A stretch of 64,000 bases of DNA. Source: Mesostigma viride. Lineage: Eukaryota; Streptophyta; Mesostigmatophyceae; Mesostigmatales; Mesostigmataceae. Of the stretch, positions 1,348-40,363 are shown piece by piece; the first letter of the stretch is position 1, and each line of letters opens with the position of its first letter. The DNA lies in contig RPFO01000127.1 in NCBI GenBank assembly GCA_009746045.1, positions 184,001 to 248,000 on the forward strand, written 5' to 3'. A model generated the notes under the pieces. It searched no databases. It was not told where the DNA came from and saw only the letters and a list, made by a program, of their open reading frames with translations. The position numbers were made by a program, and so were the translations under genes.

Positions 1348-1360
1348 ACTGCTATATTTC

Positions 1361-3187: not shown

Positions 3188-3239
3188 GCTCCCCAGCAGT
3201 ACCCTAGCTATTGCCTAGCTAGCCACAATCATCTTCCAC

Positions 3240-3425: not shown

Positions 3426-3944
3426 CAATACCTTCGCATGGGAATGCAATTCCATCGCATGGGAAGCTGCGCGCGGCATGCAAAACTTTCCACTGCTGCG
3501 TGTCTGCTCTGGCACCGAGCAAGTTAACTGTTTCCCAACGTTTTTTTTTTTTCAGAATAAATTTTCCTTCCGTCAATGACGATTGAACAAGCAATATCCG
3601 GTACCAAATGGCTCTGTAGTCTGTAAGATAAAATTTCACGCTACCATAGCCTGCACATTGCAAAATGCACTCAACAGTTACCCCGCGCACCGATTTTCGT
3701 CAATTTCGCTCGGGAATTACAGTGCACACTTTGGTGCGGCTCCGTACTGCTGTGTCATGTAATCGTTGCAAAGGAGACTCACAGCCCAGGCTTCTTGGGG
3801 GCAAAAACGCTTATTATTTACAATGAAGTCCTGCTCCCCATTAACATGGGACCTGTCTCAACCAGTCCACTAATGCTGGCCCTTGCAGGTTCTTACTTGG
3901 GGGTGGTCTCATTTTTCCCTGCGTCAGAAAGAGCTATGCCCCCT

Positions 3945-14399: not shown

Positions 14400-14555
14400 A
14401 TATGTTGGACGTACTGGTGTTAAATTAAATTAAATTAAATTATAACATGCCTCCGTGGGGAGGTCATGTAGCACATATTCCATGATGGATGGGGTGGAGG
14501 AAGCCGCGTGATCGAACTATACTAACGCTAGGCTATCTAGAAAATCCTAACTACA

Positions 14556-17500
14556 CTACTCATCAAAACGCCTCCTCCGCTTGGGGGGAGGTGGCTTGCC
14601 CACAGGGTCGGGCGTGTGCGTCTTGACAATCTTCTTCCACCGCGTCTTGTCCTGCATGACAGTCCAAAGACGGGAGAGAGAGTGTATGCGGTGCTCAAAC
14701 TGGGCTGGGACCACTAGGTCGTCCAGCAACATCTGAACGTAGTTGGTGACAGGTTTCCCTACCCTTTTGGGAATGTCCGCGGGGCCAGGCCAGGTCAGAA
14801 TATGCCGCCCTGGCTGGCCAAGCCGCTGGGGGCCGGCCAGACCAAGGGTGGTGTCGACCTGGCTAGTGCGGGCAAGGTGTCCTACAAATGCTATCCTACG
14901 CTGCCTAATCTCGTCCGAAACACGAGGCATGCCATGATACAAAGACTCTGATGACGGACGCTCGGAAAAACCTACGTTAAGGACCTGCCGGAGCATCCTG
15001 TAAACTGTGCCGTCGAGCCGAGCTGCCAGTTTGGGTGTGAGTGTCCAGGCCTCGGCGCCATACGTGAGCACCGTGAGGACGAGGACCTTGAAGAGCATGC
15101 GTTTGCGGTGCCCGTCCAGGCCCTTCGAGCGCCAGTAAGGTGTGAGCGAACGGAGCTTGGCCCAGGCGAGGGCGATGCGGGTGTCCACATCGTCGTCGGT
15201 GTCAGGAAGCCAGCTCCCCAACAGCTTGAAGCGGTCGCGGAACGGGACCTCCGTCCCGTCGAGCAGGCGCGGCAGCGGTGGTTTACTGGAGGCCCCTATC
15301 ACCATCGCCTCAGTCTTGACACTAATCTCCAACCCCACCGCCCGCGCCTCCAGGCCCAGGCAGTCCAGCCAGGTCTGAATGTGCTCGGGGCGCTCGATGA
15401 GGGTGGTGTCATCCGCATAAATCAGGTCGGCAAGGCGGTACCCCGGTCTAACCCCGCCGTGCTCTTTCACGTTAAGGATGTCCAAGCCTGGCTCGAACCC
15501 CTTAAGAGCAGTAAAGCGCGCACGTGCCCGGCGCATGACGTGATCCACGACAATAATGAACAGGTATGGGGACAGGACACAACCTTGCCACACCCCGTGG
15601 TGAAGGGGGAATGGTGGAGTGGTGCCCTCCGCAGTCCGCACTACTGCCTGTGAGCCCTCATACAGTCGGCGAATGGCAGCAATAAACGCAGGTGGTACCC
15701 GATCCAGAGCTAGGATGGCCCAAAGAGCCTCCCAGAGAACCGTGTCAAAGGCCTTGATATAGTCAACAAAAATGAAGACCAGCGGCAAACTGTCAGGGGG
15801 AAGTCGACGCACCTCCTCCATCAACCGGCGCGCGACAAACACAGCCATGACAGTGTTACGACCACTACGGAAACCCATCTGAGACTCACCCAGGTGTGGG
15901 TCCAGCGCGGCGCGGAGCCTGTGCAGCATCATGCGCATGAAGACCTTCAGCGCGGCGCTCTGGAGGCAGACACCCCGGTAGTTGCCGGGGTCAGCAGCAG
16001 AGCCCTTCTTGTACAGCATGACGCGGATGGCCGTCTGCCACTCAGCAGGCGGAGGCTCGTCAGAGAGCAGGACACGGTTGCAGAACGCCAGCAGAAGATC
16101 CCTAACCGCCAGATCAGGGGTCTTCAGCAGCTCAGCAGAAAGGTGGTCGGCACCGACCGCTGCATCGTACCGCAGGCGAGCAAGGGCGCCGTCCAATTCC
16201 TCCAAAGTGAAGGGGGGACAACGTCGTCAGTGGCAAGGCGGCCCTCCTGCAAGGCGGGGACTTGGTAGTCCGCGGCCGAGGAGGGGGGCGCCGGTGGCGG
16301 CGGGGGTCCGGCGACCCCGAGGCGGGCGGCCGTCTCGGGGTGCAGCGGCGGGGGGGGGGCGCGAGCCCCACCGGTCAAGGAAACATTGTGGGCCAACCAG
16401 CGGTCAAGGCTTACCGGCGCCGTGCCGTCCCCCGTATGCTCCACCGGGGTGCGCTGCCGCCGGCCGCCGAGCCGGTCGAGGTGGTACCACATGTCCTTGC
16501 CCTGGTTGCGGGCCTGGCAGGCCTTGGCATCCGCGATGCACTGGGCCGCCTCCGCGTCCTGAGCGTGCTCGTAGGCCTCCACAAGGGCGGCCTTGAGCAA
16601 TGGTTTCTGCAGCGGGTCCCGGTTACGCTTGAGGCGGTGCCGGGCGGCCAAGACCTTGGGGTCCTGGCGGTAGAGCGGGCCGGGGCGGCGGCGGGGCATG
16701 ACCGGCAGGTGCCGGGCCGCCAGCAACGGGGCACGGGCCGCAAAGCCCGCAAAAATGGCTGCGTTGGGGGCACCATTGTCCAGCTTGTCGACGTCCGCCC
16801 GGGCGTCCAGGGCCGACAGGTACTTCCGTCGGCACCAGTTCCGCTCGTGCTCGGCGTCCGTCCAGTCCTCAGGATCTCCCTTGACCGGACGTAGAGCAGA
16901 CCAGTCAGGGCGGACCACTGGGGCGCGGCGCGCGGGGACGTGGAACCGGAGCCGAAGGGTCGCGCGCACCAACCGGTGGTCAGAGCACACCGTGGGCGTG
17001 TCAAACACTCGGGCGTCCAGAACCGAGGTGCACCTGGGCTGCCGTACCACCACATAGTCCAGACAGGCCTGACGGCCGTTAGGGCCACGAAAAGTGACCA
17101 AGTCCTGTGAGGGACGTTGGAATTGACAGTTGACAGCAACCATCCCGCTATCCCGCAAAAAGGCAGAGAAAAGGGGACTATTGGCGTTAGCTTCCGTGTC
17201 AGCAGGCGCAAAGCGACTGCCAGCAGTGCCCACGGGGAGCGTAGCATTGGCGTCGAGCAGCATAACCAAAAAGTGGCGGGCCGGAGTGACCCTCTCAAGG
17301 TCATGCAAAGATTCGAAGAACTCCTCACGGGCCGAATCAGGTAGACCACTGTGGGGTGCGTAGCCCACCCCCACCGTGAGGTGGTGTTTAGACCGCCCCT
17401 CGACAGAGGTGAAATGTGCTACCATAAGGCGTGGGGTTAGAAACTTAAGCGTGCTGAGGCTAGCAACTGCCAGCGGCGAACACAAAAGACCAACACCACC

Positions 17501-17830
17501 TTGGCCAGACGTACCGCTGCCAGCGAAGTAAAACCGCCAGCCACCCGCCAAGCGAGCAGTGCTCACCAGGCCAAGTGGCACCGTGCGGCGGTGTTCCTGG
17601 ACGCCTAATATAGATACACGATGCTCGATGCAAAATGCGACTAGCTCCTCGATCCGGCAGCTATGGTCGTCATCTAGCAATGTGCGGGTGTTAAAAGTGG
17701 CAAGGGCCAAGGATGCCTGCTGGCCCACCAGGGGAGAACGACGATGGGTGATGGGGGTGGGTGCGGCGGGGAATGGAGGTGGGGGTGGAACGGAGGGGGG
17801 AAGGGAAGCGGTGGAAATAGTGCTTTTCAT
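14556..17830 (-). pseudogene. LINE-A ORF2: APE endonuclease plus reverse transcriptase, one frameshift
   Basis: ATG 17830 opens a 568-codon frame with a Pro-rich start followed by an apurinic-type endonuclease (ATFNTRTLL, GVQEHRR, LLDANATLP, SDHRLVRATLR). The RT follows in another frame (549 codons from about 16205 to 14556). RT landmarks are NYRGVCLQSAALKVF, FIFVDYIKAFDT with the first catalytic Asp, GCVLSPYLF, and YADD (residues 263-266 of that frame). The C-terminal region has RQRRIAFVGHLAR and a basic tail. The frames would join if one base were restored in the C run at about 16213-16218, so the copy is either recently disabled or carries a homopolymer sequencing error. No RNase H or zinc knuckle is seen. 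In life the protein would nick target DNA and prime reverse transcription there. Confidence 0.9.
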
Positions 17831-17911
17831 CGCATTTATTTTGTCCTGCAGGCGTAGGATGCGAGCCTGCCGCCTGCTCTGGGTATTCGGGGTACTGGTG
17901 TTGTCTCCTTG

Positions 17912-18374
17912 ATATTCTGATCAGGCACTCCGCAAAGGTGAAAACCATTTGCGTTCAGTGCCGGGCCGCGGAAAACGCGGAAAAACGCGATCTGCAAATG
18001 AATCCGACCGGAATCGAACTGGGGACCTCTCGCACCAACTTTCGCTGACTATAGGACGGACGTCTCCGGTTACCATGGCATCGCCAACTTACACCTACAG
18101 TCATCCGCAAAAGTTCTCCTGTCCGGGGAATGATGCAAGCCTTTCGGATTTGGTACTAGATAAATCACTCGAGATCTGTGTGTAGGGGTACTACACACGT
18201 GTCTGCACGCGAGGCTTGTTCAGTCTCGCAACGTGAGACGGGCTGAACACGGCTGGATCCTTCTTTTATTAGAAGGGGGCGTAGCCGGTACTATCGACCA
18301 GCCAAGCGTATATTCTGATCAGGCACTCCGCAAAGGTGAAAACCATTTGCGTTCAGTGCCGGGCCGCGGAAAAC
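17912..18374. repeat. Duplicated 5' UTR segment of LINE-A
   Basis: The same 65 bp occur at 17912-17976 and 18310-18374 in direct orientation, 398 bp apart, so the 5' UTR is a partial tandem monomer. Between them lie the 48-bp block shared with 1299-1347 and a B-box-like AGTTCGATTCC (minus strand, about 18018-18028). The minus strand at 17911-17899 reads CAAGGAGACAAC, as does the terminus of the family-D repeat. Confidence 0.75.
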
Positions 18375-20241
18375 CTTGATATGTTGGACGTACTTAACGT
18401 TCGATGTATCCTTGCAGCTAATCGGCGTGATCGATAGACATAGTCTTCTTTAGCTACGTACGGCCCGTGTGCACTAGCTTCAGCTCACATGCATGCATAA
18501 TGGCCATGAATTGAATTGAATTGAATTGTAACATAACTCTGTTGGGAGTATATGTAGCACATAGCCCAGAGAAGGGGCATATGGCCTATCATACATTCTA
18601 AGCTACTTCCTGCAAGGGTGGGAATGTAAACAACACTTGCTCTAGGTGCACTAGGGCACCTGCATCACCCAGAGTTTCAGGCAACACCCAGCTAAGGGGA
18701 GCCTGTCATAGGTGGGGAAGATCAGCGCAGCTATACAAAGGCTAGGGCATGGCTTCTCAGCAGGGAGTGACCCCCTGCATGGGCACGGCATAATTAAATA
18801 AAGCTAGGTATCATCTGGAGGGTGGCTCATCATAGGCACACATGTACATGACTAAAAAGGCTAGCTAGGCCTCAGCTGGTATAGTGCCTGTAGTAGGCGG
18901 GCATGTACAAGGCCACTGTCTAACTATTCTACACTACTGCTGTATTCCCCTAGGCTGGGGCTGGAGTTGCTGGGGCCGCGGTGGTCGAGGGGGTCGCTTG
19001 CCAGGGCTTGTGGCCGACGTAGATGGCCGCCCCCTTCCAGTACACCGGCTGGCCCGCCTTGGTCTGCCGGAGCTGGAGGTAGGTCGGCCATAGCTCCCGT
19101 CGCCGTTGTTGCTGCGCCAGGGTCAAGTCGTCGTCCACGGTGAAGGGAGTGTTCTCGAGCCGCTTGGGGCGTCTGAGAAACGAAATCTTGTCCGCTGGGC
19201 TGTCAAAGATGAGAAGAAGCGGAGGCGCCCCTGCCTTACCCCGCGCGCGGGGGAGGCGGTGGGCGGTCAGCTTAATCTCACCAAGGAGGCCCATGCGTGC
19301 AAGGATTTTGCTCTCAAACGCACGTGCAAGCTTCTCGGAATTCTCACCTTCCACCATGTCGAAGTTCTTGAGTATGGCGTTGAGGCTGCGCTTGGCGAGC
19401 TCGGCCTCCTCGCGGAGGTCAAGCGTCTGCCGCTTGAGCTGGGCTGCGACGGCGGAGGTGGTGGAGGTGGTATGTTGCTTAAGCATGTCCGCCCAGGTCG
19501 ACCTGGATCGTGATGGGAGGAGCATCGCCGGCCAGGCCAGCCGGGGCTGGCTTGGCGGCAATGTCCTTCACTGCCTGGGCGGTGAGGCCTGCTGTGTTCT
19601 GCAAGACCTCGATAGCGATTGCATTATCCTTGAGGCGCTGGTCGATGTCGCGGAGCTGGGCGGCGATGGAGTCGGTGGAGGCGGAGGGGGGGGGGGGTTG
19701 GAGGCGAGGAGGGTGGCGGTGGCGGTGGGGATGGTGGGGAGCTCAGCAGCCAGCGTGCCGCCAAGTGCCGCCACATCTGCGGCAAGAGGGGTCACGTGCT
19801 GCTCGAAAGCTTCCTTGAGGAGGGTGCGGATGGAGGCTTCGGAGGGGAAGGTGGGGGGGGGCGGTTTGGGAGCCCAGATCTCGGATTCGGAGCGTCCAAC
19901 AAGGGAGCAGAGGGCGAAGCGTTGAAGCCTGGGGCGAGGCATGCGTTGAATGATTGGGAGAGCCTCGGCGGGGTCGACAAGCTTGCCGTCACCAGGCCAG
20001 CGGCCACGGTTGTGGGACGTGAGGTACACGCACAGGGCTAGAAGCGAGGCGTGATTGCCGTAAAACACGTCTTCCATGAACCAAGTGGGGCTGCGTTGCC
20101 AGAAGCCGGAGCTGTTGACGTCAAAGGAGGTCTCTTCCCAGGGCGGCTCAGCAGAGCGACTGCACTTAGGTTCAGGCGATGCAGATGGCGAGGCGAGCCC
20201 GGAAGGCTGGGCGGGCACCAGTGCACGACTAGTGTCACCGT

Positions 20242-20763
20242 AGTTAGTGCACTCGTGCAAATGGATGCGAACGTGTGTTGGATTATGCAATGGCTGGCAT
20301 AATATCAACCCATGCAAGCTTGCCAAGCTGGATTGCATGGGCACGTAGGTTAGGGTAACCTAGCTATCCTGCACTAGTGCTAACCAATGAGGTGCTGGCT
20401 CCGTCCAGCTAGATCTACTCCAGCTAGGACTGATACGATGCACGCAGGCAACGACTGCCTAACAGCACTACGTGGACAGTCCTGGACCTCCCCTAGGACC
20501 TCCGTACAGGACTAGCACTGCAACCACCTTGTGGTCTGCATCACAGCTCATAAACCCTACCACGTGAATACCCACGTGCGTGTGCACTGCATATCTCAGT
20601 GCTAATATCTAGCACCCACGTGCCCATCATGGCACGTGCGGATCTAAATCCTAGTAGAGATATGTCCAGTGTACTACACTACCGTCCATGTCCGTATCCC
20701 ACTTGGGAGACGGGGACAACGCCACGTGTACTGATAGTCTAGGCCTGAAGCCCTAGAATAACT
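20242..20763 (-). repeat. 3' LTR (522 bp)
   Basis: It begins AGTTAG and ends ATAACT on the plus strand, so the termini are the inverted pair AGTTA/TAACT instead of the usual TG/CA. It matches 27457-27978 except at 20247. Confidence 0.93.
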
Positions 20764-21138
20764 CCCATTATTACTTTTCTTTGGGGAGTGAGGGGAAGAC
20801 TCTTCCCACAACCCACTCATATGCCAACCACTACTGATAAGCAAGGTTCCCCACAGGGACAACCAGGACACTGAAAGAGATGCATTTATAAAAGCGCCCA
20901 TAGCTCCTCCGTGTTGGATACAACATCCCCACTGGTTGGGTGCCTGTGTTGGGAAAACCATTGTCAGAAAAATATGACCACACGTTTTATTGACAAAGAA
21001 CAAGCCATCAATAAAGGAGGACCCTTCTGACCTCAAGCTTTAATGACGCAAAGAGAGTCTTACGGGTGGGACACTTCAGACCCTGCCACCCCATGACCAC
21101 CCTCCTATCTGGTGCTAATAGCCCTAGGCTGAGGCACT

Positions 21139-23643
21139 TCACCCTCTGCCATTATATGGGTTCATCAGCGTGTATAGGACTCTGTACTGAGGCCCTGCAG
21201 CCTGTGGCACTTTTGTGAGTGCATCTGCTGCATTGTCAGGGTCTCGGATGTGAGTCTTGGACTCCAGATAGGTACACTCCTGCTTGAGGACAATCCAGTC
21301 CAAATCGGTGTGCACAGCCAAGGGGTTGTCCAGGAAAGAGAGAAGGGATTGACTGTCAGTCAGCAGATGGGATTTGACACCAGCATAACTACCAGCCTGA
21401 TGCTGCAACCACACCAGCAGATGGTTCAAGTACCTGGCATGCAACACAGCAGATACCACAGCACGGCATTCAGCTACATTGCTGCTGACTGCCTTGCGCT
21501 TGTGGAGTCTGCTGAACCAGGAAACCAAAGATTGCTTGCCAGTGGGGTTAGACAACATAAAGAGACCTGCCTCTCTGGCTTGTACCTTAGTGACTACCCG
21601 TGACTCCATGGAACTGTCCATCATGCATGTGATGTGGATGGGTTGGAACAGATCCAAGGCATGAAGAATAAGGGGAGGGCCATCATGCAACACCTGTTTA
21701 ATAGCCCTAGACCCTACCTCCATGAGGACATCATCATCCACTCTGCTGACCACTGCCAGATGAGGAGCACAAGTGGCACACAGCCAACCTAGCTTACCCC
21801 TAATAGTGGGACAGAGATCAGGAGTGATGTCAGAGGGAAGAACATCTTTGCAAGACATGACATACTCAGGGGATGCTTTGAGAGAACACACCCACTCCTT
21901 CTGCTCCTTAAACAGGTTCAGAATGATGCCACAGAACTTGACAGGATCTTTCCCCAGCTCCAGCTGCTTGCCTAATTCAAAGCTAGCAGACACTTGAGCA
22001 ATGAAATCCTCCACAGCTGCCCTGGGACCAGTAATGAGCTGATCATCCCCATGCCACACAAACATCATCATACCAGCAGGATGAGGGATGGTGAAGAAAC
22101 AAGGGTCAATATCATCATACTGGGCCCCCAGCTTCAGGAAGACCTCTTGGGCAGACAGCCTAAAAATTTTAGGTGCTGACTGAAGCCCTTCTACCCCCAA
22201 GTTAGGCCTTAGATGAGGTTCCTTGATGTCCCCAGACCAGACTTTGGGAGTGTTTACCACATAGACTTGACCCCTCCACACCTTTTGGGCTATGTCAGGG
22301 TTGCCTTTAAGGAAGGCTCGTTTAATGTCAGTGGCTTTACACACGTAGTCCTTACCAGCATTCAGATGGTGAAGGAAAGTGGCCAACAGGACCTTAAGAG
22401 ACGTCTGCTGAATACCAGGGGTATACAGTTCAGCCTCTGTTAGCTCAGTGGAGCCCCTGAACTCCGTGACACAAGGTCTGGCATGAAAAATGGGAGGTGT
22501 CCCATCTGCCTGGGGTTTATGCTTGCAGACAAACTTCAGTCTGAGCTTTCTGGCCCCTTGTGGCAGTGCCTCAATCGGTGTTACAGGTGGTACCTGGGAC
22601 TTGCTACGTGGATCAGGACAAACCCATTCCTCTCTAGCCCTGTTAAAGGCTTCCATCCATTTCAGAAAACCAATCTGCGTTTGACAGTCTTTGACCACAT
22701 CATCATAGGACAAGGGAGACATGGACGCTATGTCCCATCTACCAAGCCCAAACGCAGAGGGGTGTAGCTTCTGAGAATGAATGAGGGAATCAACACAGGG
22801 TTCCTGACCTGGGAGGTATTTTATGTTGACAGCATTGATGGCTGCTTCCAGGCCATCACTGATCTGTGTTAAAGGAATTTTGAAATGGTCCAGGGTGACC
22901 TGCCCCACCCCAGTCACACTCAACCTCCCAGCTGAGATGACTACTCCAGGGTATGAGACAAATGGTTCCCCCAGCAGTGCATTCCCCTTGTAGCCCTCTA
23001 CTACCTGGAAGGGAGTGGGCACACCCAGAATGGGAATTAGCACTTGGCCTTTGACTGCCATTTTTGTTTTGCCTGAAAAATCTGACACTCTAGCCCAGGG
23101 CGAGCGTTGCAGACTTAGGCCAGATACAGCTTGTGCACTGATGATGCTCACCTGTGCCTGTGTGTCTACTGCCAGAATACTGGGATCCTGGTTAGATTCA
23201 CCCACAGCATTGACTTGTGCTGCACCTGCTGCCATTTGTGCCTTGGCAGTGTGTGCTCTATGTAGAGCTTTTAGAGCCTCAGCAAATTTATTCCTGGGGA
23301 CAACAGGATCTGCTGCTTCTTGTGGCTGTTCCTGAGATGAGGGAGGAGCGACCTGCTGCTCATCCAGTGCACGTTCCTCCTGCCCAGTTGGACCATTGGG
23401 CTGTGGTGGGGCTGCACCACTGAGGAACACAGGAGCGTCTATGGTTGTGTTGCTTGCATCAGCTATGTCCCTGGCCAATTCACTGGGTGAGACCAACCCA
23501 CCAGACTGAGGCTCTGAATCCATGTCCAAGAATTCTACCCCTGACACGTCTGCCAAAGGAGGGTAATAAAGCTTCAGTCTATGCTTGCCAACCATTCGCT
23601 CTCTGTGATGCTGAATAGTCACCGTGTCACCTGTTTCTGACAA
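21139..23643 (-). CDS. Protease-like, reverse transcriptase and RNase H of the LTR element
   Basis: 834-codon frame. Its first 30 residues are the end of an integrase C-terminal module (HRLKLYY). An aspartic-protease-like domain follows, with LAVDTQAQVSII (Asp160) and the flap/closing motif ALLGEPF (222-228). The RT spans about 330-600, with KATDIKRAFLKG (Asp439), EGLQSAPKIF in place of YGLKQAPR, and the catalytic WHGDDQLITG (532-534) in place of the copia YVDD. The RNase H of copia type begins near Asp676 and has AECRAVVSAV, LTDSQSLL and DPDNAADALTK. This frame should be translated as part of a polyprotein, so its ATG is not a true start. The protease lies after integrase, unlike Ty1/copia. 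The frame itself is unbroken. Confidence 0.88.
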   Translation of the reverse strand: MSETGDTVTIQHHRERMVGKHRLKLYYPPLADVSGVEFLDMDSEPQSGGLVSPSELARDIADASNTTIDAPVFLSGAAPPQPNGPTGQEERALDEQQVAPPSSQEQPQEAADPVVPRNKFAEALKALHRAHTAKAQMAAGAAQVNAVGESNQDPSILAVDTQAQVSIISAQAVSGLSLQRSPWARVSDFSGKTKMAVKGQVLIPILGVPTPFQVVEGYKGNALLGEPFVSYPGVVISAGRLSVTGVGQVTLDHFKIPLTQISDGLEAAINAVNIKYLPGQEPCVDSLIHSQKLHPSAFGLGRWDIASMSPLSYDDVVKDCQTQIGFLKWMEAFNRAREEWVCPDPRSKSQVPPVTPIEALPQGARKLRLKFVCKHKPQADGTPPIFHARPCVTEFRGSTELTEAELYTPGIQQTSLKVLLATFLHHLNAGKDYVCKATDIKRAFLKGNPDIAQKVWRGQVYVVNTPKVWSGDIKEPHLRPNLGVEGLQSAPKIFRLSAQEVFLKLGAQYDDIDPCFFTIPHPAGMMMFVWHGDDQLITGPRAAVEDFIAQVSASFELGKQLELGKDPVKFCGIILNLFKEQKEWVCSLKASPEYVMSCKDVLPSDITPDLCPTIRGKLGWLCATCAPHLAVVSRVDDDVLMEVGSRAIKQVLHDGPPLILHALDLFQPIHITCMMDSSMESRVVTKVQAREAGLFMLSNPTGKQSLVSWFSRLHKRKAVSSNVAECRAVVSAVLHARYLNHLLVWLQHQAGSYAGVKSHLLTDSQSLLSFLDNPLAVHTDLDWIVLKQECTYLESKTHIRDPDNAADALTKVPQAAGPQYRVLYTLMNPYNGRG

Positions 23644-24581
23644 CCTGATGATTTCAGCTGGACCATGCCATCTACCAGAGTGGGCTTTGTTCCCTTCCCC
23701 TCCCTATAGTAGAGTACCTGATCCCCCACTTCAAACACAGGCCTGGCATTACTTTTATCCTTTTTTGCCAGCAACTTGGCCAAGTGTTGCCTTTGCGTGT
23801 TGTAGTGGTCTAGTACCTCCTGAGAGTAGCTACCTGATTGCAGGCCAATTGGTGTGATTTCACCAAAAGGAGAAGACATGAGGGGTTTGGTGTTCAGAGT
23901 TCTGCACACCTCAGCTGCCCACGCTGTCCTATCAGCATAGCTCCCAGACTCTGCTGTCCTGGACTCATTTTTCTTTATGAGGTCCCTGATAGCACGCATG
24001 GTACGTTCAATCATCCCCTGGCGTTCATGATCTTGAGCCCCAGCAATGTCTATCTTGGGCAGATCAGGATAATCTTGTATCCACGTGAACTGCTGATCCA
24101 GCATTAATTTTTCCTGAGGATGATACCGTGCTAGTGCAATCAGCAGGGCTCTGTGCAGTTGTTCATTGGCCATGCCTGGCAAGGGTTCTATCACCACAAA
24201 CCTAGACCAGGCATCTTTTAGGACCAAGTAATACACCGTGTCCTTCACCAGGTGTATCACATCCCCTACTAGCTTTCCTCTAGCCAGTGGTGGGGTGGCC
24301 ACATGCCATCTCTTGGGTTTAGGTGCATGCAGTTGGCACGCTTCACAGTGCTTCCTGACATGCCTGCACATCTGTTCCAGGTCACGGCCATCAATTTTAT
24401 TGGCCAGCCTTTCTGCCACTGCCTCATGCCCCATTGCCTTGTGTAGCTGCTGGGCTAACCTGGCATAGGATATAACCTTATCTGCTGCTGCATCTAAGGA
24501 GGCTATAGTGGGATCTTGGGCCACCTGTGCTAACGTCATGTCATAAGCCAGGTCCCAATCCACTTCCTCACTGTCAGGCAA
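23619..24581 (-). CDS. Integrase of the LTR element, GPY/F module shifted in frame
   Basis: DNA-integration enzyme. The N-terminal HHCC zinc motif is at H47, H52, C79, C82. The probable catalytic triad is D107 (GDVIHL), D162 (LMLDQQF) and E192 (GMIERTMRAI), with 29 residues between the last two instead of the usual 35. The C-terminal part has FEVGDQVLYYREGKG. It continues, after a frame change near 23690, as GRWHGPAEIIRL and HRLKLYY in the frame of the downstream ORF. That is a GPY/F-type module, typical of gypsy and retroviral integrases and not of copia. The frame begins with CTG inside a polyprotein, directly after gag zinc-knuckle sequence, with no protease between. Confidence 0.85.
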   Translation of the reverse strand: MPDSEEVDWDLAYDMTLAQVAQDPTIASLDAAADKVISYARLAQQLHKAMGHEAVAERLANKIDGRDLEQMCRHVRKHCEACQLHAPKPKRWHVATPPLARGKLVGDVIHLVKDTVYYLVLKDAWSRFVVIEPLPGMANEQLHRALLIALARYHPQEKLMLDQQFTWIQDYPDLPKIDIAGAQDHERQGMIERTMRAIRDLIKKNESRTAESGSYADRTAWAAEVCRTLNTKPLMSSPFGEITPIGLQSGSYSQEVLDHYNTQRQHLAKLLAKKDKSNARPVFEVGDQVLYYREGKGTKPTLVDGMVQLKSSGCQKQVTR

Positions 24582-24599
24582 TACAGAGCAAATAGAGGT

Positions 24600-26082
24600 A
24601 CACGGCCATTAAGAAACCAGGGTACAGGAGACTTACAGTCGTCCTGAGTGCTGGCTTGTTTTGGGGTGCGCCCCGTCGAGGCTCCCTTCCTGGGCTTGTT
24701 GCAGCGTCCCCCTGCAGGTAACGGGTGGCGGGGCTCCCAGCAACCTGGGCACACATCCACATCAGATCCAAGTTCGGGTTTGCCCTTCCAGCAATCATCC
24801 CTCTCATGCCCCTTGCATGAGCACCTGGTGCAGTACAGGGTGGAGTCGTGAGGCTTACCTTTTGACTAGGCCCCTGAGAGGGCCCTGCCTTACTGCCTGT
24901 GTTCCCCTTTCCCCCCTTGTCTGATTTCCCTGCTGCTTGGATGACCCCCCTGCCTTCTTACCTTGCTGGGGACCCTTGAACACCGCCTTGACCTGAGCTA
25001 CCACCTCCTTGATGAGCTTCTTCCTGCTAGGACCTGCACCGTCCTGACTACCCCCCCCTTGGACTTTGTTAACCTTGGGTTCCTTGACAGTGGAGAAGGG
25101 TTCTAGGCTCTGCTGAATGAACAACATGGCCCCCCTAAAATCATCCCACTTGTCTTTAAGGCCAGCCAGCAGAACTGCATTGGTGTTCTTGTCTAACTCA
25201 GCTTTGGTGAGCCACTGATGGATCAGGTACTTAGAGTTGAGCTTCTTCAACTCCTCGTCCCTGTCTATGTACAGGACATACTGTTTGTTGTCCGTACGTA
25301 GTCAGACTTGTTGACTTTGTATGAAGCCAACCATGTGAACCCCTTGAGAGCCTGCAGGTGTTCCCCCTTGGTCAACAGCCCTTTTAGGTCTGCTATGAAT
25401 TCTGTGAAGATTTGCACCTCATCTGCCCCAGGCGTGCTGCCCTCCTCTCATACATCTGCACCATTTGTTTTATGCTAGGTGCAGATTGGTGGATCGTGTT
25501 AGACACCCTAAGAGCAGGAAACCAATCACGGATATTATCATGGGACCATGAGTGTTCTATCTTGAAAAGAAACTCAAGTGCATCCTCCTGCACAAATCCC
25601 TCAGCTAGACCTGGGAAGGTAATCCTATCTTCCCTACGGGATGCATCAAACCTGGGTCGCTGTGGTACAGCGACAGTCGCTTGTGGTTGAGGTTGCTGCT
25701 GCTGCTGCTGCTGCTGCGGTTGCTGTTGCTGTTGCTGCCGCGGCTGCTGCTGCTGCTGTGGCTGCTGCTGCTGCTGCTGGGTTGTCGCTCCAGCGTTGCT
25801 GCCGCCCGCCATACCCCCGGTGCTTGCTGGTGCCCCTCCCCCTGGTGCTCCCCCGTCCTTCCCCTCGTCACCATCCTCCTCTGGATGCGACCGCTGGGGC
25901 GTAGACGATGGTCCACACCCCTCCTGCCACTTTCCTTGGCGGACCCGCTTGGCGGCCCTCAGCAGTTGCTCGATTGCCTCTGCTGCCCGCGCCCGCTTGG
26001 TCGGGTTGGCCTCCGCTGCGTCCAGCTCCTGGTGGAGTAGTGCAGCGATGCGGTCCAGCTCCAGGTCCGTGTCGGTCTGCAT
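24600..26082 (-). pseudogene. gag of the LTR element, frameshifted
   Basis: Structural capsid/nucleocapsid protein. The likely start is ATG 26082 (MQTDTDLELDRIAALL), just after the stop of the upstream ORF. There follow a helical stretch, a Gly/Gln-rich region with long polyglutamine runs (25680-25785), and a capsid-like segment (ITFPGLAEGFVQEDALEFLF to about 25440). After frame changes near 25440 and 25300 it continues through KKLNSKYLIHQWLTKAELD and Lys-rich sequence, and ends in Cys/His knuckle-like motifs (CSCKGHERDDC, then VCPGCW) at about 24830-24740. At least two frame changes must be crossed, so this copy cannot make intact gag unless they are sequencing errors. Confidence 0.75.
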
Positions 26083-26137
26083 GGTGTGTTTGGGTGTGGG
26101 GGGTGGGGGTGGGGTGTGTCTGCGCCAGCGAACACGC

Positions 26138-27412
26138 TCACGCGCGTTTAACAAGGCCGTTCCTCGCTGGGCCCTTGCTGGCTGTGGGGTACGCATGAAG
26201 TCCATACCGCGTCCTCGGCAGCGGCTCATGTGGCGCCAGACCACGCTCAAACCGGATTGCGTCTCCGAATTCTCCCTGCAGAGCCCAGGTCCTGGCCGCC
26301 TCCTGATACCTGCGCAGAGCCCGCTCCTCCTTGCGCATGCGCCTGTCTAAGGCACGAGCATTCCTCCTGCTCTTCCTTGCCAACCGAGCCTCCTGCTCCC
26401 TCCGCGCCGGGCCCACCATCGTTGCCAGTGTCGCCTCTGACCTCTTCATGGCTGCGTCCAGCCTCGCCTGGTGACGCCGGGTCTTCTCTGCTGCGTCGTG
26501 CGCCTTCGCACGGAGTCGCTTCATCTCCCGATGCTGCGCCTCCCGTGCTGCGCGCTCCCTGGCCAGACTGTTCTCCGCCATGGACCGCACCATTGCCCTC
26601 TTGGCCTTCCGCTGGCAATGCCTGGCGTACTCTATCTTGGCCAGACGCTCTGCCTCCACCATGGCCGGGTCCATCAAAACAAGCTCCTCTCCACGCGCTC
26701 CTGGCTGCATTTCCACCGACGAGTCGGTCTCCTGCAGCACATCTCCAGCCATGCGCCTGAAGGAGCGCGCTGTGCGCCTGTGCGCAAAGGTGTACAGCTC
26801 GTTCTTCTTGCGGAGAACGTATGGGGGCGCCTCTCGCGCGCCTGTCGGCCCCGCGCGCAGCCCCGCCCTCGCCACTCGATCCCTCTCCAGCTGCCGCTCC
26901 GCGAGCTCCCGGGCTATTCTGTCAATCTCAGTCTCCGCCCGCAGCTGAGCCTCGCGCTGAGCCTCCAGCTCGCGCTGCTGCTCCAGCTCCTTGCGAAGCT
27001 GGGCCTCCTGCCGAATGCGCTCTGCCTCTCGGCGGAGCAGCTCCTCGCGTTTCGCCTTGTCCTCCGGCAGCTCGAGGTCCACGAGGTCCTCGTCCTCGTC
27101 GTAGCCGTCTGACGGGATGTCCCCCACTATCGGCACCACCCTCCCCGGCCCCGTAACCAGCTCGGGTGCCGTGGGCTGCCCCTCCGCCGGTGGTGCGTTG
27201 GGACGCCATACATTGTACAGCAGCGGCCTTGCCGCCAACTGATCCAGGAACCGCGGGTCCTCGTCCGAAGACGAGCGACCACTGCCGGCATCGCTGCCAG
27301 CGTGATCATCCCTCCCCTGCCGGCCCCGCACTGCCGCCCGGTAGTCCAAATCCTCGGACGATGGGGACAGGCTTGACTCCGAAGAGCCCTCACGATCAGA
27401 AACGTTCGACAT
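26138..27412 (-). CDS. Accessory ORF upstream of gag, charged coiled-coil protein
   Basis: 424-codon intact frame, ATG 27412, only 45 bp from the end of the 5' LTR, so it is the first ORF on the element's RNA. The first 100 residues are acidic and Ser-rich (SESSLSPSSEDLD, DEDEDLVDLELPEDK). From about 115 to 185 a dense Glu/Arg/Ala heptad-like region (KREELLRREAERIRQEAQ) predicts a coiled coil, and a second charged helical region spans about 250-380. The C-terminus is basic. No retroviral motif is recognised. It overlaps the start of the next frame by about 110 bp. It may be a transduced host gene fragment or an element-specific packaging or nuclear factor. Confidence 0.7.
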   Translation of the reverse strand: MSNVSDREGSSESSLSPSSEDLDYRAAVRGRQGRDDHAGSDAGSGRSSSDEDPRFLDQLAARPLLYNVWRPNAPPAEGQPTAPELVTGPGRVVPIVGDIPSDGYDEDEDLVDLELPEDKAKREELLRREAERIRQEAQLRKELEQQRELEAQREAQLRAETEIDRIARELAERQLERDRVARAGLRAGPTGAREAPPYVLRKKNELYTFAHRRTARSFRRMAGDVLQETDSSVEMQPGARGEELVLMDPAMVEAERLAKIEYARHCQRKAKRAMVRSMAENSLARERAAREAQHREMKRLRAKAHDAAEKTRRHQARLDAAMKRSEATLATMVGPARREQEARLARKSRRNARALDRRMRKEERALRRYQEAARTWALQGEFGDAIRFERGLAPHEPLPRTRYGLHAYPTASKGPARNGLVKRA

Positions 27413-27456
27413 TTTGAATGATAGAGATGAAAAACTGTGAGAGTTTTATAAATGCA

Positions 27457-27978
27457 AGTTAATGCACTCGTGCAAATGGATGCGAACGTGTGTTGGATTA
27501 TGCAATGGCTGGCATAATATCAACCCATGCAAGCTTGCCAAGCTGGATTGCATGGGCACGTAGGTTAGGGTAACCTAGCTATCCTGCACTAGTGCTAACC
27601 AATGAGGTGCTGGCTCCGTCCAGCTAGATCTACTCCAGCTAGGACTGATACGATGCACGCAGGCAACGACTGCCTAACAGCACTACGTGGACAGTCCTGG
27701 ACCTCCCCTAGGACCTCCGTACAGGACTAGCACTGCAACCACCTTGTGGTCTGCATCACAGCTCATAAACCCTACCACGTGAATACCCACGTGCGTGTGC
27801 ACTGCATATCTCAGTGCTAATATCTAGCACCCACGTGCCCATCATGGCACGTGCGGATCTAAATCCTAGTAGAGATATGTCCAGTGTACTACACTACCGT
27901 CCATGTCCGTATCCCACTTGGGAGACGGGGACAACGCCACGTGTACTGATAGTCTAGGCCTGAAGCCCTAGAATAACT
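27457..27978 (-). repeat. 5' LTR (522 bp)
   Basis: Same as 20242-20763 apart from one base. It should hold the promoter for the element's minus-strand transcript. ACCGT follows at 27979-27983. Confidence 0.93.
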
Positions 27979-28289
27979 ACCGTTGCCATCTGGGCCGGTG
28001 GGCGAAGCTGCAGCCGAAGCTGCATGCGGATTTTCATTGCCGAGCGCAGCCGCCAGGCTGCGTTGCGTCGAGAGGCGTTTGCTCATCGTATATTGCGTAA
28101 TAGCTTTGGAAAATTATATCAGCATGTGCGTCTTAGAAAGACGAAGCGATTGTGATATTCACAGCCGAATTCGGTGCTCAAACGTGAAAGTTATGAGCTC
28201 CGCCGTCAGCCATGGCTACCTCGTGGCTCGTGGGTCGAGGGAAACAACGTGATGGCCATGATGCTTTCAGTATTTAGCCGCGCCCAGCC

Positions 28290-28658: not shown

Positions 28659-31600
28659 CCCTTAATTTGTACTGAGTCCGTTTTCGTGGCTCCAGTTGAA
28701 GTCCTACCACTCTAACGGACTGAGTTTGTGGCAGAACCAGGCGCCGCGCCAAAAATAATTCAACGGTCAAACCTGGCCCAATCGATAGATCTAGACGTAC
28801 TCTATGCCTGGGTCTATTCAGACCGTACTTTGGACAATTGGCCAGGGAGTTATGATCTGGCAAACCCAGGGGGGTACCCTGGTCCTGGGGTACTTTCGGC
28901 GGGAAAAAAATGCGCGTTTTTTGCCAAAAGACGTGCACGACGACGAAGACGACGTCTGACCTCGGCAGACATGGCGTCGCCTACTGGCCAGCTGCTGGCC
29001 ACATTTCGACTGAAACTTGGATTTAAGGTGGCAGTGCCTCCGGCCTTCTTCGGAGAGCCGTGGGCAGTGCAAGAATATGGTGAGAATCATGCGCATTATC
29101 GCCTAGACGGCCATGTAGCGGAGGTGACACGCGATAAAAAGCAGGGATGGTGCAAATTTGTCGACGATCCATGCAAATATAAGTTGACAAAAGAGCAGAT
29201 TTTTCAGTTCAGGAAGGTAGGAGAGACCTCTAGGCCTGCGGAGGACGAGGTAGAGGAGGAAGGGGATGCAGGCAGCGATGGGCAGGAAGGTGGGAGCGCA
29301 GGTGACGGTCCAGATGCCTCGGAGCCGGCATCGGAGCCGGACAGCGATGACGAGCAGGATAGCGAGGATATTTCCTCCTCCCCGCCCAAGAAACGTGCCA
29401 AGCGTCGTGCAGGCAACCCGAGGAGGACGCCTGCAACCGGCAGAGTGCCAAAAAGGCGTCTGCAGCGGCTGCCCCCTCCGGATCAGCCCGACTCCGAGCC
29501 CAGCGACTCTTCTGATGACGACGACATCGTTCCCGAGCTTGTGGACAGCGATGCTGAGTCGGAAGATGCGGGGGATGATGATCCGGATGGTGGCGACGAT
29601 GGCGGGGATGAGTGGGTGTTCGGCACTGGCAAGCCGGATCCTGCAGAACTGCCCCGAGTGCCGCATGGTGCGCCGTTTGACAGTGAGCGCAAGGCGATGT
29701 ATCAAAACATCCCGGGTGTTCCTTACCGGTTTTCTCCTCTCGACCTGTTCCTGCTGTTCTGGCAGCCTGGCCCTGTGCTGGAGCGCATTGTCAAGGAGAC
29801 AAACCGCTATGCCGAGGAGAAGCAGCGCACGGCATCTGCTGGGGCACGGGAGTGGTCGCCTCTTTCCATGAACGAGCTGGGCAAGTGGCTGGGCATCCTC
29901 TTGACCATGTCACTCGTGAGCATGCCTGCCAGGGGGGATTATTTTTCTGGCCAACCACTTGGTGCTGCTCATGCTGCCAACCTGCAGCACGTGATGCCCC
30001 TGCTGCGCTTCCAGCAGATTACACGCTTCTTGCACTTCCGGGACTCTGCTGAGCGCCCCGCCAACACGCTGACACGCGAGTGGCGACTGTGGCAGTTCTT
30101 GTGGCTGGAGGACATCTTGAACGACGCCTACAAGAAGTACTTCATCCCGGGTAGCGCGGCTGCCATTGACGAGAGGAGCATCGCGTCCAGGCACAAGCTG
30201 TGCCCAATACGGTGCTTCAACCCGAGCAAGCCTGCCCCCTTCCACGTGAAGCAGTATTGCCTGAACGACTGGCCCACCGGCTACCTGTACCATGCCAACA
30301 CGTACGACAAGCTGGCCCAGGTCAACCATACCTTCCACGTGGTGAATGAGCTTGCCAGCACGTTGCCACACGGGGTCCACATGGCCATGGACCGGTTCTA
30401 CACCGGCCGTGAGGTGATTGAGGCGTGCCACCGCATGGGCCACCGCGTGGTGGGCACAGTGCTCCCCAACCGTCGTGGCCTCCCCTTCACCGAGGTCAAG
30501 CGCCTCGTGCCCCGCAGGCCAGCCCAGGGGGACTACGCATGGGCTGTCAAGCGTGATGGGCTGACCTTGGCCGCCTGGCAGGACCGCAAGCTCGTGTGGG
30601 TGCTGGCCAAGGGCATCCCCCTTGAGGAGGAGATGGTCAGCCGCCATGGCGGCCGCGACGAGCGCGTCATGGTCACTGCCCCCTCGCTCATTCCCGCGTA
30701 CTGGAGCTGCTACAAGGCAGTGGACAAGTTTGACCAGCTCGCCAGCAACTACGACCTGCAGAAGGCCCTTGTCTCGCGGGTGTGGTGGCACCGGGTCGCC
30801 ACGGGGCACCTGGCCAACGCGGTCGGCAACGCCTACATCCTGCAGACTCTCACCCGCGCCAACCGCCCTGACTGCCTCTCCCACGTGGGGTTCCTCAGCT
30901 TGCTCTCACAGCAGCTGGTGAACAATCAGTGGCATGGCGCCCGGCTGGACATCGACCGCATCGCGGAGGCCCACCAGCCTGGGCTGGACGGGCGTTTCAG
31001 CGGCACCCACCTCGTGCCCGAGCGCATTCCGTGGACGGAGCAGGCGCAATGCGTGGTATGCGCCACCATCCCCGAGCGCAAGCGCACCAACTTCTGGTGC
31101 AAGGACTGCGACCAGGCACTGTGCTTGGGCGCGTGCTGGAACGTGTTCCACGCAGGGCCTGTCACCGCGCTCGACGATGACGGGCGCCGCCAGCGTGCCA
31201 TGCAGCCCCTGTCAGCCCGCAGCCCGGCTGGCCGCGCGTGGCCTGAGGCCAATGGCCGCACGACCCGCACGCTGGCAGCTGGCACCCAGCTGACAGGACC
31301 TCGTAGGAGGCAGTTTCTGCGCACCCAGAGGCGCAATCCGTAGTTTGGCACATAGCCAGGTAGCCTTGACAGTTAGCTACACCCTTGGCTAGTCATGCGC
31401 TACCGCGCGCGCGCGCTAGTGCCATTTTGGCCCCTTGCGGCATGTTGGCATGTGTTATATGGCATGGTCTCTTGTTTTATCACCTAGGTATGGTGCATTA
31501 TGCCCATTTGGGAATCCCTTGTTGTTTTATGCCAACTGGAATAAAGTTTTGTGTTGTTATGCTACCATTTATACCCCTGCCAACTGGCACCGTTATAACG

Positions 31601-32224: not shown

Positions 32225-32803
32225 ACTAAGGATGGAACATCAAGGAGACAACCAGCGCAGGCCAGAAATCGGGAGAATCCGGACCATGGTAGCTCGAGCC
32301 TGCCGTTATCTTGTCCGCGTTTTCGAGTCGTTCAGGATGATGAAGATGAATGGTGATGGAAATGTGTATCCTTGTGCATTGAAATTATGGCTGGCTTACG
32401 TGGAGAGCGACTAGATGACCTAGACGGTGGGGCCGGAAACAGCATGCTTGATCAGGGCGTGTGTTTCGAGCCTAACTGGCCGGGACTGTGTCTAGTGGTG
32501 AGCACCATTGCTGCGATCGCTCTCCCACCATTTACGAGGAAATACCCGCAAATGGAAAACCACTGAAAAGGTCTAGCTAGTCAGTCATCACGTTAGCCAT
32601 GCCATGATTCCAAACGTCCAAGAACTGCACACGGTGCAAAGGCAAAAAGCCGGAGGACAGCACTTTCAAATGTGCGGCGGGAACCAAAAGCCCGCGGATG
32701 CCAGAAAACATCGTGTTGCGGCAGCGACGCGACGATGTGGACAACGAATCCAGTGCCAAGCTCGGAACGGCCGCAAAGGAGATCTGAACTAAGGATGGAA
32801 CAT
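32225..32803 (+). mobile_element. Family-D insertion flanked by 16-bp direct repeats
   Basis: Sequence 32241-32787 lies between two copies of ACTAAGGATGGAACAT (32225-32240, 32788-32803). It begins CAAGGAGACAACCAGC. The same body occurs inverted at about 58530-59105. The minus strand can encode a segment with CTRCKGKNPDDSSIKRA and ENIVLLQPRDATV, partly conserved in both copies. The TSD suggests retroposition, but there is no A-rich or AATT tail. Identity is unknown. Confidence 0.6.
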
Positions 32804-33032
32804 GCACAGAAAGCGGCCACGAGCGGACATGGCTAACGGCGGAGATCAGAACTTTTGCGTCTGAGCCCCGAATGCAGTCAGATCACTTGCAACCGATGCG
32901 TCTTTTCTAGGCCGGCGCATCTGCTACTATCATCGGTTACAGCTGTAACGCAGTATTGTGACCAGCCTGCAGCTATTACGCAAAGCATATATGACGAGCT
33001 AACGCTCATCTAGGCAACGCAGCCTGGCGGAT

Positions 33033-33583
33033 TGTTGTCTTTTATGGCTCGCAGTCACATTGGTGGGTAACCTATAACAACCTGTGTTGATTGGTGCATT
33101 AACCAACTGGTGGTAATTCATACAAGTTTGTGTTCACCCATCTTGTCTGTGTTGATTGGTGTTGGTATTTGATGAGCTGATGTGGGCTATGTGTTGATAT
33201 GGTATTGTGACTAATCGAGTGGGCGGAAGTCTGTCAGTGATCGGAAGTTGAGTACTTTCGGCTGTGGCCGATGTGTGTGGCGCCACGCCGGTACTTGTGC
33301 AGTTTTACTACTTGCGGTGGTATCGCTCTATTTCTGGGTACTTTGTGGCGTCGCGTTGATATCTTCAGTTCGCGGTATGTGTGTCTTGTGGTTGAGCTGA
33401 TGCGTTGCGGTGATGATCCACAAAGGCAGCCGTCATTACATTTTGGGGCGCAATCACCATGTGAGCGCGCGCACCTACGGGCCTAAGGGCTGCGGGCTAT
33501 GGATCTGAGCACAATACCCACTACCATCATCTTCGAGGATCTTCGCCAACTCCTTAAGCTTGTAATTGATGCTTTATTTAACA
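33033..33583 (+). repeat. Left LTR (551 bp) of non-coding element
   Basis: It has canonical TG...CA ends. A short 71-codon ORF inside both LTRs has no recognised product. Confidence 0.9.
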
Positions 33584-36500
33584 TGTACTAGGTTGGGGTT
33601 CTTGTTTTAGCTGAAAGCGTCAGTTGACCATGGCGGCATTTGTCCAAGAGAAAACGATGCGGAATTTCTAACGGAATTTTACACTTTCTAGCGGTAATGT
33701 AAACGGAAGTGACGAAGGAAATGTCCTCTGCTATCTTGGCGAGCTACTCCTGATTGGCTGCTTGAAGCTGCGACAATTCGATCTGAAACGGAGCTCGGTA
33801 GGCGATGTGCCTGGAATTTCGGGTCGTCTCGACTGACCGACTGAATTGCGCCAGAATCTCTCTCTGTGCGCTTGTCCTTTAAGAATGCTAATGGATTTAT
33901 TATGATAGCCGTGTCGATTGAGTTTGCAATAGATTCCGTAACTGTGCGCTGTGTATCTCAAACGAAATAGACTGAGGTGATCTCTTGTGGGTCATGCTCG
34001 TCATGCTGATTGTCGGAATGCAGTTTTCTTGGGTCGTTACTTGCTGCATGCAGTATGCTAGCTATTTCTCTGCGTCAACTGGGCACTATTGTCTTGTCTC
34101 GAGACGTTGTGGTTGCCTACGGGCAAGACTTTGTGCAGGAAACGTAGGCTCTGTGTGTGTTACAAAAGTCTGTTATTCGACGTTATCTGCGCTTCTTCTG
34201 CGCCGAAATTGCTAGTACTCCAGCAAGTCCATGACGACTTGCAATGTATAATTTGTTCTTTTGATTCGGCTGGTGGCTTCCTTCTCAGCCTGGGTGCTAA
34301 GCGTACTCAAATAAAGTTTATGCAGGTGATGAAAGTTGCATGTACCGAGAAGAGGCTTGCTTCATCTTGTTCCTTGTTTGCAGCACCATGAGCTATGTGC
34401 TACCGGCTTTGGGACGCTTTTGCCAACTGAGGGCCACTGAGTGTGCCTGCTCTTAGTGTTCTGTTCTCCATTTCAGCCATGTCAAGAACAGTGTACTGGC
34501 TGCGCTGTTCGGCGTTCTCCCAGGTAACGGTTGCATTTTATACCACATGCGCATGCGCAGTGTTGGGCTGTGCCCTGCTGAGACAGAGAGTTGGGATACC
34601 AGTGGTGATGATGATTGTGAGAGGCATTTTCAGTAACCCGTGTGTGACTGGGTATGGTGGTCTGGCTGAACCAGCCGTGGTGCATCCTGCCCGCTGGGGC
34701 AATATTGGTGCAGTGGAATCCGAGAACGAAACTGTATCACTGAGTCGAGTGAGCCTTGTATTATCTGGGAGTATGTGTGACGCTCTACTTGAACGTGCCA
34801 TGTGGTGATTATTTGGAATTTGTTAATGAATGAGTGGCTGTCACACTTGTCGCTTGGCGTTCGTTGGATGATGCGTGGTGCCTCGGTGTGGCATGCTAAT
34901 GTTTGTGGCTGCCGGTTATGGTTGGGCAGCTGGGATGAAGGCAGTTGTTTATGAGCGGACAGTGATGAGATGTCCCACGCTGTTTTTCTATGTGTCAATG
35001 ACTGGAGACTTACTTGGACTAAGTGTCTTGTCTTTTATAAACCTGGAAAGGGGGCGTGTTTTCTCTAAAGACTTCCTCCGATGGGTTCTCTCTGTTTTTT
35101 ATCTGTGGTTTTTCATCTGTTTTTGTGGCTAGGGTTGCTCCGTGCTGTCTATGAGTTGATGATAGAGTTTGCCTCTACATCTGACGAAGTTGCAAGGCGG
35201 TGTCTAAGCTGAGATTGCACATTTGAATGGGTTGTGGGATGGTGACCCGCTAAGCAAGGTTGCAGTGGCGTGTGACTTGTGTATGGCGTTTCTTTCAGGC
35301 AGTGCGTATCATGCGGAGGTTCCATTGGGCTTGATGTGGACAGGATGTGCGTTGTTCATTCATGTGATAGCTTACAGGCCTGTTAGATGTGCCTGACAGG
35401 GGCTGGCAGAGCTGGCCTGACAGTGGCATTATCCCGTGTCCTCTTGCTTTGAGCTCTGTCCATGCGCCGACTACTTCTATAGATGTGGGAGGAGGCAACA
35501 GTAGCAGACTAACAGCCCATTTGTGCATAGTCTGGGTCAGGTTGCCTCTACTGGGATTGGAGCGGGAATAGCCTAAAATGCCTTGGTTGTAATTTGTGTG
35601 CCCGAGCTTCCATGGAGTTGAATTCTGATGTGAATGGCCTGTGCTGTGGCATGATGTTGAGTCATTGGCGGCACCTTTTGATTGTGCCAGTGCAGACCTC
35701 TAGAAGGGAACTTGGTGAGTGTGCTCTGGATATGTTTGGGGTTGAAGGTCAGATGGTGCGTGCCGATTTAAGGTCAAGGTGCGTGCCGGTTGATGGCGTT
35801 CACTGCGGACTTGCATGCTCATGTTGAAGGGGGCATGTTAGGTCTGACCCACCGAGACTTAGTCCCTTCTCGGTTGCCCAGGCAGCAGCTCGGTCCATGG
35901 AGAGATCGCTCGCGGGTGTGCACAGAAAGGGGGCATCCCGCTGGAGCTTGCATGTAGGAGGGTCCCGCCTGGGGCAAAGGGAGCTGTGAGCGGGGGAAGC
36001 TACCCTTGGGAACGAGGAAGAAATGGGAGCTTGGAATTGAGTACACTAAAAGGGGGCCCACCACAGACAAAGTTGTCCCACTTAGTATCCGGACGCTTGG
36101 TGGGGCATGGGTGGCAGATTGAGATCGGTGTCTGATTCATCACACAGTACCTCTCTGGGCGTGCAGCTAATCTCTGTGGTATTGTTCCCTAAGGTGCCGG
36201 TGCTGTGAGTGACAACGTTTTGGGTACCAGCGATCAGGTGGGGTTACTAGTGCAGGTACCGATTTGGCGGTGGTAACTGCAGTCAGGTGTTGCTTGTGTG
36301 AACTTGCTGTGTCTCCTCTCCGCCAACGACCTTTTCTTCTAAACCAACCCATCGTGGTGCGTTAGCTCCGTGGCGTGTCACTTCACGCGTCCTTATGCTC
36401 GTGTTGGTCGGTCAAACGCACATTTTACTCCTTAATAAAAGGAAAGCGTTGGGAATTGTACTGTTTTGCGGGCGTAGAAGTACCTCATGAGCGTTTGGTA

Positions 36501-40360: not shown

Positions 40361-40363
40361 AAA

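Follow-up and report, generated by a model that had tools for sequence, protein, structure and literature searches.

A young ORF1-only retroelement family of Mesostigma viride and an autonomous LINE that probably helps to mobilise it

The 64,000-nt stretch of Mesostigma viride DNA analysed here (the window; C1735:184001-248000) carries two sorts of long interspersed nuclear element (LINE) copy. One, at 14416-18378, encodes an apurinic endonuclease-like domain (APE) and a reverse transcriptase (RT) and has no first open reading frame (ORF1); the others, the ORF1-only copies, encode ORF1 and no RT. The original prediction, made from the window, held that a LINE had been divided stably into these two transposition units, and much of its description of the copies stands. 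The RT copy contains the Pfam domains Exo_endo_phos and RVT_1 and is enclosed by a perfect 16-bp target-site duplication (TSD), a length that none of 3000 randomly paired window stretches equalled. ORF1-only copy B has a 10-bp TSD (18500-18509 and 28252-28261; matched in 3 of 3000 random pairs) and is interrupted by a long terminal repeat (LTR) element whose LTRs (20242-20769 and 27457-27984) are 99.4% identical. The claim that copies A and C repeat the plan of B was borne out for C, which is 5'-complete (32797-42551), holds two nested insertions (RT2, which is a truncated LINE copy, and another LTR element) and has a TSD of 9 bp, a length reached in 23 of 2000 random pairs. It failed for A, which is rearranged and joined to an RT fragment; a search around A gave no TSD above 7 bp, and it could be a product of template switching or twin priming.

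Searches were made in the M. viride assembly (439.9 Mb, 2243 contigs); the published assembly of strain NIES-296 is 442 Mb with 66% repeats, and the genome paper names LINE as a repeat class in the legend of its figure 3, with no LINE families described in its section 8 (PMC6947507). The ORF1-only element is a discrete, TSD-bounded unit of ~2.0 kb belonging to a young and abundant family. A genome search with the ORF1 protein P0110 returned 24,748 first-look candidates, of which the best 90 were scored; first-look counts, here and below, are not copy numbers, and only the best-scoring matches are listed. No stop was present in 85 of the 90, and open frames of 478, 481 or 485 codons were frequent. 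We examined 30 of the 90, 10 of them fetched whole and 20 read for 900 nt past ORF1 (L-numbers denote genomic stretches fetched from the assembly). All ten whole copies proved to be ~2.0-kb units with common ends and, as originally described, a 5' untranslated region (UTR), ORF1, 3' UTR and tail without RT. Identity within subfamilies was 99.5-100%, and the flanks were unrelated except in L031 and L032, which represent a single duplicated insertion. Candidate TSDs of 8-13 bp were found in nine of the ten, at least 10 bp long in seven, L035 being ambiguous as it sits in an older tail; of 70 pairs made from the flanks of different copies (L035 excluded), none reached 10 bp and two reached 8 bp.

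No RT or APE match was found inside the element in any of the 10 whole units or 20 downstream stretches, L062 being assessed as far as its 3' UTR, past which it runs into another ORF1-type sequence. The RT/APE matches in the downstream stretches lie only past the 3' end of the element. A scan located the terminal hairpin in 17 of these 20 stretches; L060 has an altered hairpin and a tail followed by a separate LINE fragment, and in L065 a fragment of a second LINE type (see below) sits in the hairpin. The exact 46-nt 3' end of one subfamily occurs 1,338 times in the genome, with zero for the controls. In the protein database, the ORF1 profile matched 89 clusters with 219 member sequences (scored among the 7,996 candidates with most words in common); 88 are named Mesostigma gene models and one derives from a 960-base contig, and an RT or endonuclease Pfam domain is listed in none of the 89. 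The same plan is kept by divergent types, namely the P0130 type, 55% identical to P0110 (one copy, L011), and a deeply diverged element at L016 1500-3700 on the minus strand (one copy, 35% over 328 aa to P0110). The family shares two features with HAL1-like elements: the 30 examined copies code for ORF1 without RT or endonuclease, and the units are TSD-bounded with a LINE-type tail.

For the RT copy, the genome search with the APE region gave 1568 first-look candidates, 40 of which, the window copy included, were scored at 98-100% identity; 20 of the other 39 were fetched and compared with the window copy. In 15 of the 20 the match extends to 17892, with common sequence upstream of that point, and in five it ends further inside. 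The shared upstream stretch encodes an ORF1 of 391 aa, retained at least partly in 13 of the 20 relatives and spanned over all 391 residues in eight, some with frame breaks. Candidate TSDs enclose the whole LINE unit (up to ~5.1 kb) in L011 (10 bp), L012 (11 bp), L018 (11 bp) and L028 (12 bp). The reverse search, with the DNA of the LINE ORF1, gave 534 candidates with 40 scored at 95-100%, and all ten copies fetched from these continue into APE-RT, two with internal deletions. By these comparisons, the autonomous LINE is an element of ~5.1 kb with ORF1 and APE-RT; the exact 46-nt 3' end of the LINE occurs 1,043 times in the genome (controls zero). The original prediction had named elements with both ORFs as the finding that would count against it, and the genome-wide look produced exactly these for the RT family, so that a stable division into two units is no longer tenable. 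In the autonomous-LINE copy at L009 2410-7587, the identity of ORF2 with the window copy is 99.7%, and that of ORF1 with the ORF1 of L011 only 70% at the amino acid level. This seems to be a swap of the ORF1 module between lineages, as is known elsewhere (PMC4120745).

The closest database matches of the window RT protein are M. viride gene models, the best with 97% identity over 58% of the query. In the RT phylogeny, which contained two clade references, the window APE-RT sides with BovB and not with human L1; the 17-row group in question has a support of 92/97, below the mark of 95. The absent or tiny ORF1 associated with RTE elements is not what the full-length LINE copies have, which is the 391-aa ORF1, and only some RTE clades are described as lacking ORF1 (PMC4120745). 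An RTE element without ORF1, a reading drawn from the ORF1-less window copy and the grouping with BovB, was considered and is wrong for the fuller copies found in the genome.

An ORF1-less type of RT element is not confirmed by the window copy: it does lack ORF1 itself, but everything in it 5' of 17892 is foreign, and the fetched relatives mostly (13 of 20) continue there into an ORF1. Judged by comparison with these relatives, this copy is one insertion of the autonomous LINE in which the 5' part, including ORF1, has been replaced by foreign sequence; its ORF2 frame is broken between APE and RT. Parts of the foreign end recur in L020 and L021 at 87-97%, and an exact 65-nt direct repeat within it (17912-17976 and 18310-18374) is separated by 333 nt. 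Because a single 16-bp TSD encloses the copy together with its foreign end, the replacement would most simply be explained by a template switch during reverse transcription within one insertion. In the window copy (16124-16226) as in L011 and L012 (near 5865), the ORF2 frame stops within one common region of the linker between APE and RT, which may reflect shared decay, an assembly error or a frameshift signal. A tRNA B-box-like sequence was seen by eye in the stretch between the 65-nt repeats (17977-18309), and a tRNA scan over it called no tRNA.

The ORF1-only element is homologous to the autonomous LINE in its ORF1, its 3' end and its 5' end. The last ~70 nt are common to the two (76%, E 1.6e-9), a weaker match lies at the 5' end (66% over 116 nt, E 1.6e-6), and a third match of 51 nt (E 3e-5) is not colinear; the two ORF1s are 27-30% identical over ~130-150 aa. 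That both types end in the same hairpin was part of the original prediction and is supported by the nine window copies, in which 92.2% of cells are paired and seven are double-changed, neither value being reached in 500 shuffles; the covariation score was likewise reached by 0 of 500. Shared 3' ends are described for partner LINEs and short interspersed nuclear elements (SINEs), with stem-loops in pairs of the stringent type (PMC3747384). A close full-length parent of the ORF1-only element with both ORF1 and ORF2 was not found among the 30 examined of the 90 scored copies.

A first full-length model of the ORF1 protein (ORF1p) was poor, with a predicted local distance difference test score (pLDDT) of 47.7, and was kept out of the fold searches. 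With model m379afecc6d68 (pLDDT 71.0; predicted template modelling score, pTM, 0.51), all nine PDB matches at E <= 0.001 were human LINE-1 ORF1p. On this model, the ORF1-only protein is a predicted LINE-1-type (Type II) ORF1p with a coiled coil, an RNA recognition motif and a C-terminal domain. The fold search alone gave this match: homology to LINE-1 ORF1p was negative by sequence with Pfam, the PDB profile search and hhalign, the hhalign score against human L1 ORF1p (18.6) being exceeded by 4 of 100 shuffles. Codon comparisons between subfamilies show what appears to be purifying selection on the ORF1; among the window copies, substitutions by codon position gave a weak third-position excess only. 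Between L030 and L036, the synonymous divergence (Ks) of the N-terminal ORF1 codons 70-175 is 0.55, with 0.14 and 0.07 in the flanking codons, and the ORF1-only proteins look like mosaics.

We consider it likely that the ORF1-only family is a HAL1-like non-autonomous lineage, deeply diverged from its probable helper LINE, whose proteins would move it in trans by way of the 3' end that the two have in common. The element encodes a single ORF1p of ~470 aa between a short 5' UTR and a ~0.4-kb 3' UTR with hairpin and AATT-rich tail, and probably inserts by target-primed reverse transcription, as indicated by the TSDs, 5' truncations and 3' tails. From the common terminal hairpin, we infer that RT and endonuclease are supplied in trans by the ~5.1-kb autonomous LINE, and the ORF1p of the ORF1-only element may act mainly on its own RNA. 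As the LINE has its own ORF1 beside APE-RT, the helper need not depend on the ORF1-only protein, a dependence that the original prediction had thought possible. The 27-30% identity of the ORF1s, the 55% and 35% types with an unchanged plan and the purifying selection make the ORF1-only plan look old and inherited.

Several observations weigh against this interpretation. The sharing at the 3' end extends over just ~70 nt, and the tails differ: the LINE ends in (AATTT)n, the ORF1-only subfamilies end in (AATTC)n or (AATTA)n. Nor does the hairpin stand out in how many of its pairs have a double change (150 of 500 shuffles) or in its number of further pair types (172 of 500). The ratio of nonsynonymous to synonymous divergence (Ka/Ks) is not distinguishable from 1 either for the closest ORF1-only subfamilies (0.70, 0.43-1.13; 0.67, 0.41-1.17) or for pairs of the autonomous ORF1 (0.68, 0.42-1.16; 1.21, 0.48-4.87), and ORF1 mosaicism blurs these values. 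The ORF1p model is only moderate, and the whole-chain TM-scores of its fold matches are low (0.36-0.45 by query). A rare autonomous element combining RT with exactly the ORF1 of the ORF1-only type may also exist, as 30 of 90 scored copies, themselves the best of 24,748, were examined. Finally, the helper could instead be a second (P0005-type) LINE with an (AATTA)n tail, for which 24,581 first-look candidates were obtained.

This last alternative, in which the second LINE or both LINEs mobilise the ORF1-only family, is a variant compatible with the favoured reading, and we regard it as possible. Of the candidates for the second LINE, 125 were scored at 96-100%, its 3' end has a hairpin and the same (AATTA)n tail as ORF1-only subfamily b, and an ORF1-like frame precedes ORF2 in two of the three stretches read (425 and 473 codons; the third, L069, shares ~110 nt only there), so that the helper could be either LINE or both; the sequence around the hairpin of the ORF1-only element (TATGTGCTACAT...ATGTT), however, is closer to the window-type LINE. 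The same ORF1-like frame, together with the RT copy's relatives in which ORF1 and APE-RT stand side by side, speaks against a LINE stably split into two units. That scheme suits the window, where each copy has its own TSD and one set of ORFs, and could appeal to an RT nearer BovB than L1 and to the absence of ORF1 in some RTE clades (PMC4120745), but it was rejected on the genome search, which leaves it very improbable. It is also improbable that the ORF1-only copies are ordinary, recent HAL1-type deletion derivatives of an autonomous LINE still in existence and lack any lasting identity. The ORF1 and the two ends are indeed homologous to the autonomous LINE, and HAL1 provides a precedent (PMC5322556); yet ORF1s just 27-30% identical, two divergent types sharing one plan (each seen in a single copy) and selection on ORF1 between subfamilies speak against a recent origin. 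Going beyond trans mobilisation as proposed above, one could picture an ancient, ORF1-specialised parasite lineage, polymerase-less through several subfamily divergences, whose ORF1p loads its own RNA onto the APE-RT of a foreign LINE against that LINE's ORF1p and so acts as a device for RT capture, an idea that we hold to be speculative and rather unlikely.

The ORF1-only element of Mesostigma is undescribed in the papers found in our literature search. Its closest known relative is HAL1 of mammals, followed by HeT-A with TART. HAL1 copies are likewise TSD-bounded ORF1-only LINE derivatives that rely on the RT and endonuclease of full-length LINEs (PMC5322556), whereas the Mesostigma ORF1 is deeply diverged from that of its likely helper, one ORF1-only plan is common to divergent types, the RT of that helper is nearer RTE than L1, and the 3' end consists of a hairpin and AT-rich tail instead of poly(A). 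HeT-A, in the HeT-A/TART/TAHRE system of Drosophila telomeres, is an abundant ORF1-only element served by the RT of another element (PMC4700185); the Mesostigma element differs in forming dispersed TSD insertions without telomere addition and in an ORF1 with the predicted LINE-1 ORF1p fold. A common 3'-terminal sequence is also found in RTE-derived SINEs and SINE/LINE pairs such as RTESINE1, Bov-A2 and TS/RTE (PMC3747384), in contrast to which the Mesostigma passenger is ~2 kb long and encodes a protein that appears to be under selection. With RTE-clade LINEs (RTE-1, SR3, BovB), the Mesostigma LINE may be compared for its APE-RT, placed on the BovB side of the tree at the support given above, and for its short 3' UTR, which, as reported for that clade, closes with short AT-rich repeats (PMC1291365). 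In RTE-1 and SR2 the upstream ORF may be no more than a short one, and SR3 has a single main ORF (PMC1291365), whereas the Mesostigma LINE has its 391-aa ORF1, homologous to an ORF1p of predicted LINE-1 fold.

If the proposed relationship is correct, ORF1-only LINE parasitism would take in, besides mammals and flies, an early-branching alga of the streptophytes, and the family looks like a long-lived freeloader, not one element split in halves. Near-identical copies of parasite and candidate helper in one unicellular genome would then be useful for experiments, and would let one ask whether the passenger needs its ORF1p in cis when the helper has an ORF1p of its own. The window RT copy illustrates how a single genomic copy can mislead on the gene content of a LINE when its 5' end was replaced. 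Many predicted Mesostigma genes are ORF1s of the ORF1-only element, which calls for caution with gene models. In P0116, P0128, P0130, P0131, P0135, P0136, P0143, P0149, P0157, P0158 and P0196, the ORF1 is joined to unrelated Pfam domains; these models are probably artefacts or insertions in genes.

Table 1. Retroelement features of the window (positions from the first nucleotide of the window)
Feature	Position	Strand	Remarks
Copy A: an RT fragment and ORF1 fragments united on one strand, followed by an inverted 3' UTR	1348-3436		Rearranged
TSD of the RT copy	14400-14415 / 18379-18394		16-bp perfect repeat
Autonomous-LINE copy body: tail, hairpin, 3' UTR, RT and APE domains	14416-17892	-	Pfam RVT_1, Exo_endo_phos
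3'-terminal hairpin region of the LINE copy	14431-14484	-	
Foreign 5' end of the RT copy, in place of the family's ORF1	17893-18378	-	Match to relatives confined to 17892 and inward
3' portion of ORF1-only copy B: frame-broken ORF1, 3' UTR, hairpin, (AATTC)n tail	18510-20241	-	
LTR element nested in B	20242-27984	-	Pfam RVT_2, weak rve
5' UTR of copy B and beginning of its ORF1 (ATG at 28086)	27985-28251	-	tblastn of P0110 residues 1-41
5' portion of ORF1-only copy C	32797-33032	+	TSD ACTAAGGAT, 32788-32796 / 44140-44148
Copy C, ORF1 lacking its C-terminal part, with a portion of the 3' UTR	39432-40768	+	
RT2, a 5'-truncated insertion within C, from the LINE family of the RT copy	40769-42374	-	TSD CGCTGCAGTAT; 90% identity with the first RT copy
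3' end of copy C, hairpin included	42386-42551	+	
ORF1-only copy D, 5'-truncated, inserted at the tail of C	42560-44132	-	TSD AATTAATACTAA
ORF1-only copy F, 5'-truncated	55988-56302	-	TSD GTTGTGTGAA
ORF1-only copy G, 5'-truncated	56819-57063	-	TSD TGTGCACAT

The smaller copies of the window are collected in Table 1. Their TSDs measure 12 bp in D (1 of 2000 random pairs), 10 bp in F (5 of 3000), 9 bp in G (11 of 3000) and 11 bp in RT2 (4 of 3000). Retroelements are nested at 32788-44148, where C holds an LTR element and a truncated LINE and D is inserted at its tail. Between copies B and C, at 28716-31343, lies an 875-codon ORF in which a transposase domain of the piggyBac type was recognised (DDE_Tnp_1_7, E 4e-48).

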